From Lentisphaerota bacterium (lineage in GTDB: Bacteria; Verrucomicrobiota; Lentisphaeria; Victivallales; Victivallaceae), in the NCBI GenBank assembly GCA_015061575.1, contig SUWF01000008.1:1-64000 (forward strand): a stretch of 64,000 nucleotides of DNA, read 5' to 3'. This document shows, piece by piece, positions 3,299-60,438 of the stretch. How positions within the stretch are numbered: the first letter of the stretch is position 1; every line of letters starts with the position of its first letter. Under the pieces are notes generated by a model, which was not told the origin of the DNA, did no database searches, and was given only the letters and a program-made list of their open reading frames with translations. The position numbers and the translations under genes were made by a program.

Positions 3299-3325
3299 AG
3301 GCATATATAGTTTGAAGCAGGTTTT

Positions 3326-4459
3326 TCAGCAGCCGAGTTCCTGCCAAACTTCAGTCAGATCGATTTCACGATTTTCGCATGCCGCCCGATCGATGGCAAG
3401 CGAAAATACCGCACTGCGCAAACCTTCACTGCCGCTGCATTTGGGCCGGGTGCCGTTCTGCATGGCATCCCATAATTCGCCCATGATTTTGCCGTCGCCG
3501 CCGCCATGCCCGAGGCAACTGCCGAAGGTGATCAACTGTTCGGTGCTTTCGCCGATCATGTGATAACGCACGCTCATGGTGTAAAACTCCACGACCAGCG
3601 TGCCGTATTCGCAGTGGAAGCGCATACGCCGTTCCGGCAACGCATTGCACATAGTGGCACTGAAACTGCCAATGATGCCGTTGCGGAATTCAAAAAAGCT
3701 GAACGTCGTATCATCCACATCGCTTTCGGCGGTGAACGGCGAATCTGCCTGTTGCTGGTTCTGCTTGACCATCAGGGTATTGGGCGGATATTTTTCAAGC
3801 ATGTAATTACGTTCAGGTATCCAGAAACGGCGGTCGGAAACCGCACGCACTTTCAGCGGCAGATCGCCGGTAAACCACTCCAGCAAATCCAGATCGTGGC
3901 AGCACTTTTCAAGGATGTGCGGACCTGCAAGCTCGCGTTTTCTCCGCCAGGTCGTAAGCATGTAGCCGCCATGTTCGGGCAGAATATTTTCGTTGGCTTC
4001 GATGCTCAAAATTTTACCGAACTTGCCGGAATCAAGCAACTCTTTGACCTTGAGATACAAAGGCGAATAGCGCAGCACAAAACCGGTGGCAAACATGGTG
4101 CCGGCGGCTTTGTGGGCTTTTTCGATTGCCTGACAATCTTCGATGCTCGTCGCCAGCGGTTTTTCAGCAAAGACATGCTTTTTAGCTGCAAAAGCAGCCT
4201 TGATGTGATCGCAGTGCATACTGTTCGGCGAAGTTACGATCACCCATTCCACGCCGGGAGTATTGATCGCAGCTTCAGGCGATTCAGAGTTTTCCACCGC
4301 CGGCAAGTCAAGATCGTTGAAAAACTTGTCACGCATCCATTGCTCCGGATCGTAGACAGCTGCCACTTCCAGATTGCCTTGGGCATGCTTCAAAAGCTCT
4401 TTCATAATGCTGCGGCATCTGCCGCCGGTACCGATTACTGCACACTTGATCTTTTTCAT
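3326..4459 (-). CDS. Gfo/Idh/MocA-family NAD(P)-dependent oxidoreductase
   Basis: A 377-residue dehydrogenase. The start at 4459 (MKKIKCAVIG) is preceded by AGAAAGG and is better than the longer frame extending to 4531. The N-terminus has the Rossmann dinucleotide motif VIGTGGR (residues 8-14). The family EKP signature is at about 99-101, and a CHDLDLLEWFTGD segment carries the His/Asp usually near the active site. Such enzymes oxidise or epimerise sugars, inositols and amino-sugar derivatives; the substrate cannot be read from sequence. It lies 19 nt downstream of the CBM9-like/phosphoesterase gene, and its Shine-Dalgarno lies next to that gene's stop, so the two are probably cotranscribed. 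Its 3' end converges on the AraC gene with no obvious terminator. Confidence 0.9.
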   Translation of the reverse strand: MKKIKCAVIGTGGRCRSIMKELLKHAQGNLEVAAVYDPEQWMRDKFFNDLDLPAVENSESPEAAINTPGVEWVIVTSPNSMHCDHIKAAFAAKKHVFAEKPLATSIEDCQAIEKAHKAAGTMFATGFVLRYSPLYLKVKELLDSGKFGKILSIEANENILPEHGGYMLTTWRRKRELAGPHILEKCCHDLDLLEWFTGDLPLKVRAVSDRRFWIPERNYMLEKYPPNTLMVKQNQQQADSPFTAESDVDDTTFSFFEFRNGIIGSFSATMCNALPERRMRFHCEYGTLVVEFYTMSVRYHMIGESTEQLITFGSCLGHGGGDGKIMGELWDAMQNGTRPKCSGSEGLRSAVFSLAIDRAACENREIDLTEVWQELGC

Positions 4460-26847: not shown

Positions 26848-27948
26848 ATGAAGAAGCAAATTTTCACTTTTATAGAACTATGGGTGAGAGTTGCTTGTCA
26901 GGTAGGTGTTTTGCCGTTATATTACCTCAAAAAAATTTATAAAAACTACACCTCTTTACGCCCGCAAGGGCGCACTTCACGCTTTTTTGGCAATCGCCAA
27001 AAAAGCTCTTCACAACCTCACATCTTCACTCAATCAGCGTTCACGCTGATTGAACTGTTGGTGGTCACCTCACAACTCTGCCGTGATTTTTTCAAACGCT
27101 TTATTTTTACGGATCAGTACGGATGTGTACGGAAACATACGGAGAGTGCCGCTCACAAAAATACGCCGCATCATACTTGCAAAGCAAGTGCTTCATGTTT
27201 GCCGCAGGCAAACGCTTCATGCAGCAACGCTGCGCTTCACACGGCGGAGCCGTGCTTCATTCGATCAGCGTTCACGCTGATTGAACTGTTGGTGGTTATT
27301 GCCATTATAGCCATTCTGGCGGCTTTGCTGTTGCCGGCACTTTCGGCGGCAAGGGGGAGTGCCAAATCGATTTCTTGCGTGAGCAATCTTAAGCAAATAG
27401 GTTTGACGCACATAAATTATTGCAGCGATAATGCAGATATGACTCCTCCGGTATGGTCGCCCCGCCGCTGGATCGATTCGCTGGGGGAATATCTTGAAAA
27501 AAAACAGCAAGATAACGGCAATGTCTGGGTGTGTCCGGAAGATGCCCGCACCGGAGCCGACCGTTGTGTTTGGGGAAATGATAACAGTGTTTTAAGTTAC
27601 GGCATAAATCAGGCGTACCGGCATGACCCGGATTACCGGGTCAAACCGTATCTCTTGTGGAATGGTATTGACAGCAAGCTGATAAAAAATCCCGGTGAAT
27701 TTATCACTTTTGCTGATTGTACTTATTATTGGGTCGGGGCAAGTTTCGGGGAGCCGATGGAACCGATAATTGAACGCAGTGAACCGGCGGTAAATGGCGG
27801 CTGTTACGGACATGTGTCGCTGCGGCATTCGGAAAGCAGCCGGAGATTTAATGCGGCTTTTTTTGACGGCCATGTGGAAAGTCTGACAGCGTACAAGATG
27901 CCCACTCAATATTGGGATTACAATAACGACGCCCACGACGATTTTTAA
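26848..27948 (+). CDS. Pseudopilin-like (DUF1559/H-X9-DG type) protein with a repeat-expanded N-terminus
   Basis: A 366-residue protein starting [11 protein letters not shown] at 26848 (AAGG upstream). The prepilin N-terminal motif appears three times in one frame: FTFIEL at residue 6, FTLIELLVV at 65 and FTLIELLVV at 142. Only the last is followed by the full hydrophobic helix [18 protein letters not shown]. The C-terminus carries the H-X9-DG motif ([20 protein letters not shown]). About 136 extra residues separate the start from the functional pilin helix and are encoded by hairpin arrays. The residue before the functional Phe is Ala, not the usual Gly. It leads an apparent operon with an ABC importer and a radical SAM gene. 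Whether it is processed or even functional is uncertain. Confidence 0.75.
26959..27051 (+). repeat. First hairpin cluster inside the pseudopilin gene
   Basis: Three palindromes lie in sequence: CGCCC-GCAA-GGGCG (26959-26972), GCTTTTTTGGC-AATC-GCCAAAAAAGC (26981-27006) and AATCAGCG-TTCA-CGCTGATT (27032-27051). Linkers contain CTTCAC. The right arm of the third is the start of the codons for FTLIELLVV. Confidence 0.8.
27108..27147 (+). repeat. Four tandem decamers TACGGANNNN
   Basis: TACGGATCAG, TACGGATGTG, TACGGAAACA and TACGGAGAGT run head to tail. The reverse strand of 46021-46060 carries a similar 10-bp periodic repeat. Confidence 0.7.
27175..27281 (+). repeat. Array of variable hairpins with constant GCTTCA(T/C) linkers
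   Basis: Stems differ but the linker is fixed. They are ACTTGC-AAA-GCAAGT (27175-27189), GTTTGCC-GCA-GGCAAAC (27197-27213), GCAGC-AAC-GCTGC (27221-27233), ACGGC-GGA-GCCGT (27241-27253) and ATCAGCG-TTCA-CGCTGAT (27264-27281). GCTTCAT, GCTTCAT, GCTTCAC and GCTTCAT sit between them. All of it is translated in frame. Confidence 0.85.
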
Positions 27949-59245: not shown

Positions 59246-59373
59246 AAAAAAGAACCGGCGCAGGTGGGGGGAACGCTGCGCCGGCAAGAACGAACACCTG
59301 TAACACCCAAGGGGAGGCGGGGAACCTAATTAAGTATAGCGAGTATTGCAGGCTTAATCGTTCGTCCTTGTAC
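59246..59373 (-). ncRNA. Candidate free-standing small RNA (about 128 nt) with C-rich loops
   Basis: On the minus strand a promoter (59406-59379) is followed by a likely start near 59373. The RNA closes with CAAGGACGAAC (59370-59360) pairing with GUUCGUUCUUG (59295-59285). Inside are AUUAAG/CUUAAU and a possible CCUG/CAGG pseudoknot. It ends in a strong terminator: CCGGCGCAG/CTGCGCCGG (59284-59255) then TTCTTTTTT. Unpaired C-rich stretches (GGUUCCCCGCCUCCCCUU and GUUCCCCCC) resemble anti-Shine-Dalgarno seed loops of trans-acting sRNAs. No known RNA family recognised; no ORF inside has support. Confidence 0.7.
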
Positions 59374-59378
59374 CTATT

Positions 59379-59406
59379 AATATAGTCGTGATTTTGAAAT
59401 TTTCAA
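59379..59406 (-). promoter_or_regulatory. Promoter of the small RNA candidate
   Basis: On the minus strand TTGAAA (59406-59401), 16 nt, TATATT (59384-59379). The predicted start is 6-8 nt downstream, just before the closing stem. Confidence 0.7.
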
Positions 59407-59471
59407 CTGAAATTTTGAAAAAAATCGCTTTTTTTGTCATATTTCAGCTTCAAACCGCTCTTTTGCTGAAA

Positions 59472-60287
59472 TCATTTCTCCGGATCGTCGGGATTTCCGG
59501 AATCTGCTTCCACGGCTGTAGCAGGGGCAGCGGCATCTTCAGCTGGTTCTTCCGGCAGCAAGGCGAGGTAAAAATTGGCACCAAAAGCACACAGCAGCGG
59601 CAATATTGCTATGATCAGCAACGCCGACAAAAGTATTCCCAGCCAGAACAGAGTAAGCGCAGCAACCAAATTGAGCAGGAGTGTAATGCTGATAATAAGT
59701 ACGCCCCACAATAACGTGTAGCCAAACAAGCGGAGTTTGTAGCCGTAAATAAGTTCAATACTCTTTTGCATGGCATTGCGCACTGACATGGCCGGAGCAT
59801 CCAGCATAATGTAATAGGTCATGCTGTAGCGATAAGTGGCGCTGATCGGCAGGAACAGCAGTATTATCAGCAGGGCAGAGAACAGTAATGTGATCCATAC
59901 TGCAGGATGCTGGTTGTGTTGCGAAACATAATACCCGAACAAACCAATCAATGCTATTCCCGGCAGCGCCCACAAAAACACAAAGATCCCCACCCGCAGG
60001 CAGCCCCAGAGCATCCTCCAGTATTGACGGAATGGTTCAAAGAGCGAACTTACCGGAGCAGCTTCATTGCGGCTGGCCCGCAAATAAAATAACATCATAC
60101 CTACATTCAGCGGAAACAGCAGCCAGCCGCTGAGCAATTGTACGATCGGTATAAAGTTGACCGCAAGATTGACAGCTCCGGCGATGCAAAATAAGAGGAG
60201 CCCTTTCCAGTAATGGCCTTTAAGGCTTTGACTGCTGCGTTTGATCAAGGCGGCAAAACTGATTTCTCTGACGGACTTGTTGCACAT
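59472..60287 (-). CDS. Polytopic membrane protein (DUF975-like)
   Basis: A 271-residue protein with about six membrane spans and an acidic C-terminal tail (PEEPAEDAAAP...). The start region (SFAALIKRSSQSLKGHYWKGLLLF) and the amphipathic AMSVRNAMQKSIELIYGYKLRLF resemble DUF975-type integral membrane proteins of unknown function. Good AAAGGA before ATG 60287. No partner is evident. Confidence 0.7.
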   Translation of the reverse strand: MCNKSVREISFAALIKRSSQSLKGHYWKGLLLFCIAGAVNLAVNFIPIVQLLSGWLLFPLNVGMMLFYLRASRNEAAPVSSLFEPFRQYWRMLWGCLRVGIFVFLWALPGIALIGLFGYYVSQHNQHPAVWITLLFSALLIILLFLPISATYRYSMTYYIMLDAPAMSVRNAMQKSIELIYGYKLRLFGYTLLWGVLIISITLLLNLVAALTLFWLGILLSALLIIAILPLLCAFGANFYLALLPEEPAEDAAAPATAVEADSGNPDDPEK

Positions 60288-60438
60288 GATAGTATTTTCC
60301 TTTCCCCCGGTCGGGATTTGTTTTAATCAATGAATCAACTCCAAGCTAATATAAGTTCACGGGGGCGCAAATGCAAATCCTTAATCGTTTGATCATGTCG
60401 TTTTTCTGCATTTTTTATTTAAGTCGTATTTGGCCAAA

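Follow-up and report, generated by a model that had tools for sequence, protein, structure and literature searches.

C-rich segments are a feature of several described bacterial small RNAs. In LhrC, UCCC motifs located in a stem-loop, in a single strand and in the terminator loop are used for pairing (PMC4132741), and RepG of Helicobacter pylori pairs through a C/U-rich terminator loop with a G-repeat leader (PMC8295292). IsrR carries three C-rich regions (PMC9410917). A structured RNA, the Acido-Lenti-1 motif (RF01687), has been reported from Acidobacteria and Lentisphaerae (PMC2864571). Our searches of the literature and Rfam turned up hardly any work on Lentisphaerota small RNAs, and no description of the RNA analysed here. 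Its locus lies in a 64,000-nucleotide stretch of DNA (hereafter the window) that is part of contig C62 in a 2.86-Mb draft genome (G000), and it was compared with those of four other members of the genus (G001–G004); the lineage is represented here by metagenome assemblies. Rfam gave no real match to the RNA, either at gathering thresholds or at E up to 10. This agrees with the earlier note on this DNA, which had recognised no named family and had proposed 6S RNA (RF00013) as a check; neither 6S nor another Rfam family was matched. Membership in Acido-Lenti-1 was rejected, the motif being absent from the cmscan matches at E up to 10, as was membership in LhrC (RF00616; 19.3 bits at E = 1.7, where the gathering score is 110).

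The promoter that the earlier note had claimed, TTGAAA-16-TATATT, was found on the minus strand at 59406–59379 (–35 element TTGAAA, 59401–59406; –10 element TATATT, 59379–59384), where, of the 6 promoter-like sites within 1.6 kb (expectation 2.7), it was joint best. The –10 element was conserved in 5/5 genomes. The same hexamer and spacing of the –35 element recurred in G001 and G003, G002 carried TTGCTT-16-TATATT, and in G004 no –35 element was recognisable, though TATATT was present. At the other end, the terminator hairpin CCGGCGCAG-[CGUUCCCCCCAC]-CUGCGCCGG (59255–59284, minus strand) consists of a GC-rich stem of nine pairs, CCGGCGCAG/CUGCGCCGG, and a 12-nt C-rich loop (59264–59275), and is followed by the tail UUCUUUUUU (59246–59254), the T-run of which was conserved in 5/5 genomes. 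It was absent from the list of a simple scanner because its loop is longer than 8 nt. In the five-genome alignment 100% of the cells of the terminator stem were paired and three of its pairs had changed on both sides, which bears out the GC-rich terminator with T-run that had been described. With the start placed 5–7 nt downstream of the –10 element and the end at the T-run, the predicted transcript would cover 59246–59374 of the minus strand (about 127–129 nt). The only open reading frames at the locus are short, overlapping ones (62 aa on the minus strand, 59 aa on the plus strand), and the locus is conserved in the way an RNA would be. A conserved promoter, a covarying terminator stem and a T-run are what is expected of a stand-alone intergenic small RNA.

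The RNA folded at –47.6 kcal/mol (z = –4.6 against dinucleotide shuffles; 0/200 shuffles as good) into an 11-bp closing stem, an inner stem of 12 positions with a 32-nt apical loop, and the terminator hairpin with its T-run. The closing stem P1 pairs CAAGGACGAAC (59360–59370, minus strand) with GUUCGUUCUUG (59285–59295), and 6 of its 11 pairs had changed on both sides; the inner stem P2/P3 pairs CCUGCAAUACUC (59341–59352) with GGGUGUUACAGG (59297–59308), again with both-side changes, in 6 of 12 pairs. Overall, both-side changes were observed in 15/32 pairs among the five genomes, where 6.5 were expected after shuffling; this count comes from alignment A4, which was fitted to the model and leans toward its structure, and an earlier, model-free MAFFT alignment gave 11 such pairs. 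Standard pairs made up 97.5% of the pair cells in A4. When the partners were slid by 1–3 columns, at most 3 pairs showed both-side changes, against 15 in the unshifted structure, and 0/500 shuffles reached any of the five covariation measures. Read on the minus strand, the pair cells included 17 G-U and 1 C-A, and the RNA is therefore on the minus strand. Consistently, P1 (59370–59360 with 59295–59285) is complete as RNA only on that strand because of one G-U pair, exactly as the earlier note had it, and the covariation analysis that the note had called for thus yielded a conserved structure with compensatory changes in the homologues, as expected of a stand-alone small RNA. The gene and its fold are solid: fold, strand, orthology (see below) and the conservation of promoter and terminator all follow from computation.

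A pseudoknot, GAUUAAG/CUUAAUU, is likely, not proven, from the comparison of species. Its 5' strand (59353–59359, minus strand) precedes the inner stem and could form 7 bp with the 3' strand (59328–59334) within the apical loop. G004 has AAAUAAG/CUUAUUU, again 7 bp, by a compensatory change, and G003 has AAUAA/UUAUU, one base shorter on both sides by a matching deletion. These two are the only species that differ in the apical pseudoknot segment, and the partner strand differs in both too. Swapping the partners between G000 and G004 shortened the helix from 7 to 4–5 bp. The helix of G001 has only 5 bp, with a G-U pair, and taken singly those of G001 and G003 were no better than shuffles. The pseudoknot suggested in the earlier note thus gained support from one compensatory change and one matching one-base deletion, weaker support than that of the stems.

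The C-rich loops were present as previously described, and loops of this kind characterise the C-rich small RNAs that block Shine-Dalgarno (SD) sequences. The apical segment AGGUUCCCCGCCUCCCCUU (59309–59327, minus strand) was invariant in 5/5 genomes, and in the terminator loop a tract of five or six C, with AC after it, was kept across the five. The stems vary freely with compensation while AGGUUCCCCGCCUCCCCUU stays fixed, and this combination of an invariant apical segment and a conserved terminator-loop C-run with changing stems points to a functional single-stranded site, beyond a stable hairpin.

One copy of the RNA was present in each of the five genomes of the genus examined (5/5). By blastn against 61 genomes it was found in all four other members of the genus (81–92% identity) and in none of the remaining genomes. 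With a covariance model built on the full-length RNA, the five scored 122–152 bits and all else among 78 genomes of the family <30 bits; the 20–29-bit matches in other genera of the family were rejected as terminators downstream of unrelated genes, matched via the terminator part of the model. When the terminator was dropped from the model, the remaining core had no hit outside the genus, either in 137 order genomes or in 388 genomes taken from the phylum; these scans applied strict filters and scored only part of the first-look candidates, so that a relative that has diverged strongly may have escaped them. Among GTDB genomes, sequences identical to the RNA core were confined to four Lentisphaerae/Lentisphaeria bacterium MAGs, apparently G001–G004 themselves, one of which came from sheep colon; this agrees with the placement in Lentisphaerota made in the earlier note. 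An 18-mer, TAGGTTCCCCGCCTCCCC, occurs in two IMG/VR contigs (L011:7263-7280 and L012:9198-9215) with identical local surroundings; it lacks the RNA structure (15 bits), was rejected as a homologue, and probably reflects chance, approximately as expected for a collection of that size. We conclude that this is a new, genus-restricted structured small RNA family of Lentisphaerota; the earlier expectation of homologues across the phylum was too wide.

The RNA is divergent from an adjacent NUDIX hydrolase gene in G001–G004, with an MFS transporter gene after the NUDIX gene in G001–G003. In G000 the NUDIX gene is on contig C37, and a gene for a DUF975 membrane protein lies upstream of the RNA instead; a rearrangement directly upstream of the RNA has parted the two (C37:94492-94983 vs window 59246–60287). 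Downstream, G000 and G002 share a CBM9-like gene on the same strand as the RNA, as well as a histidine-phosphatase gene. G002 therefore bridges both gene arrangements, which supports orthology. G003 has a convergent ORF downstream, G001 a glyoxalase-like ORF further away, and the G004 contig ends beside the RNA. No downstream gene was consistently associated with the RNA across G000–G003, as expected of a stand-alone small RNA. A synteny search found no related RNA adjoining the NUDIX gene in other genera.

The earlier note had proposed that the C-rich loops pair with SD-like sequences, and had called for target prediction at ribosome binding sites. We examined a 392-kb sample of the same genome with about 290 start regions called by a crude gene finder. 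The SD sequence in use is AGGAG/GGAG (AGGAG at 12% of starts vs 0.7% in genes), GGGG at starts was at background (3.9% vs 3.2%), and AAGGGG occurred in no start region. Complementarity to the apical loop averaged –10.1 kcal/mol in start regions and –10.6 within genes, compared with –11.7 for shuffled loops, so that with these crudely called starts there was no enrichment at ribosome binding sites of the kind expected of a C-rich SD-blocking RNA. Pattern searches for long or extended loop complements found none conserved across the genus apart from the RNA gene itself. Given no start-region enrichment and no conserved extended complements, a general SD-blocking RNA is unsupported. The earlier interpretation thus stands as to a stand-alone, structured minus-strand RNA with promoter, terminator and no named family, but not as to SD pairing as a general mechanism; a few G-rich mRNA targets, or a protein partner, remain as options.

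Among individual candidates, neighbouring genes were weak targets, the DUF975 gene excepted. Before its start (window 60288–60327, minus strand), GGGGGAAAGG is complementary to the GUUCCCC loop (–16.3 kcal/mol), a pairing energy not unusual against background; this leader is a possible target, unproven. Prepilin-type genes, which gave one strong match, were rejected because the loops and the ribosome binding sites of these genes have no motif in common. Such genes are numerous in the sampled genome (loci L065–L082, and one at window 63575). At window 26848–27300, an insert of ~190 bases with short repeats splits a prepilin-type N-terminus (FTFIELW...), and a 42-base segment coding for FTLIELLVV recurs after the insert (27024–27065 vs 27255–27296, 95% identical). 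A similar insert occurs in L082 near 3300–3514 (81% over 224 bases). It looks like a repeated element set into prepilin-like genes.

As to possible partners, the genome encodes two KH_KhpA-B domain proteins. Neither Hfq nor 6S RNA (by RF00013) was matched in it, and these absences are not firm because the Hfq model misses most of 14 control genomes and RF00013 detects only 5/14.

With a probability of roughly 0.45, we read this RNA as a single-copy, stand-alone regulatory RNA of ~128 nt that acts in trans by base-pairing with a few G-rich mRNAs. The mechanism that we infer, from transcription through base-pairing to targets and partner protein, has moderate support at best. A sigma-70-type promoter of its own would drive transcription, which would stop at the intrinsic terminator after ~128 nt. 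P1 and P2/P3 with the pseudoknot would then form a closed domain that keeps the invariant C-rich apical segment open, adjoined by the terminator hairpin with the second C-rich loop. One or both loops may pair with a few G-rich segments of mRNAs, in a RepG/LhrC/IsrR-like manner without Hfq, possibly with KhpA/KhpB as partner. Trans base-pairing is favoured because CCCC tracts sit in two distinct loops of the RNA, a layout that LhrC, RepG and IsrR use for pairing, and the lack of an Hfq match together with the two KH_KhpA-B proteins was counted in its favour. Against it weigh the absence of enrichment at start codons and of any long complementary site conserved in the genus. An invariant loop of ~20 nt with a pseudoknot also exceeds the 6–8 nt that a seed needs, and would equally fit a protein-binding site.

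That last point leads to a distinct possibility, tentative as it is, that the RNA binds or decoys a protein, its pseudoknotted scaffold offering the C-rich strands to a KH protein, a cold-shock protein or Rho, so that it titrates or guides the protein and mRNA pairing is not its main function. The ~20-nt loop is invariant in five species whose stems vary freely, its geometry would be held by the pseudoknot, there are two C-rich sites, KH proteins are encoded in the genome, and start codons show no target enrichment; yet no protein with such a site is known, and C-rich loops commonly serve mRNA pairing. A bolder version, that it represents a new pseudoknotted class giving two fixed C-rich strands to, for example, a KhpA/KhpB-type KH protein, we regard as rather unlikely. 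If true, it would make the RNA an Hfq-independent riboregulatory hub in a phylum whose small RNAs have hardly been studied. It is less plausible still that the RNA is a lineage-specific global regulator, whether as a replacement for 6S or as an anti-SD mimic on ribosomes. RF00013 detects no 6S here, and the loop CCUCCCCUU resembles the anti-SD sequence CCUCCUU. However, the low sensitivity of RF00013 means that its silence says little, the SD of this genome is AGGAG rather than GGGGAGG, the architecture differs from the centrally bubbled rod of 6S, and the RNA is confined to one genus, whereas 6S is an ancient RNA. A cis-acting leader (riboswitch or attenuator), with the hairpin as a regulated terminator of the downstream gene, is very improbable: the compact pseudoknotted fold does stand directly before the terminator, and the CBM9-like gene is next on the same strand in G000 and G002, but G001 and G003 have different downstream genes, which argues against a riboswitch, and P1 and the terminator stem use different bases, with no conserved antiterminator pairing seen. 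Finally, an untranscribed locus, whether an element conserved as DNA or a fold arisen by chance, is scarcely credible beside the 15 compensatory pairs, the failure of all 500 shuffles, the far worse slid structures, and the conserved promoter and T-run; nor would 17 G-U against 1 C-A cells be expected of DNA.

Fifteen compensatory pairs from just five sequences make this a well-supported new RNA family. As its genome has no detectable Hfq, the RNA gives a tangible starting point for work on regulation independent of Hfq in a gut/rumen lineage.

Among known systems, 6S RNA also stands alone and has a structure that includes a closing stem, but it gave no match, and the Lentisphaerota RNA is shorter and has a likely pseudoknot instead of a rod with a central bubble. 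IsrR and the RsaE/RoxS-type small RNAs of Firmicutes resemble the RNA in combining an intrinsic terminator with several C-rich regions that are single-stranded (PMC9410917); IsrR has no demonstrated sequence relation to it. Staphylococcus has few G-rich stretches apart from SD sequences, whereas the sample here has 50% GC with GGGG unlinked to starts. RepG is also an intergenic small RNA with a C/U-rich terminator loop (PMC8295292); no sequence relation is shown, and its target is a homopolymeric G-repeat leader, of which none was found conserved for this RNA. LhrC is multicopy, belongs to Listeria and has a described structure without a pseudoknotted closed domain, but it gave the best sub-threshold bit score of the Rfam families in this stretch, and it shares with the RNA a stem-loop, a C-rich terminator loop and a similar length.
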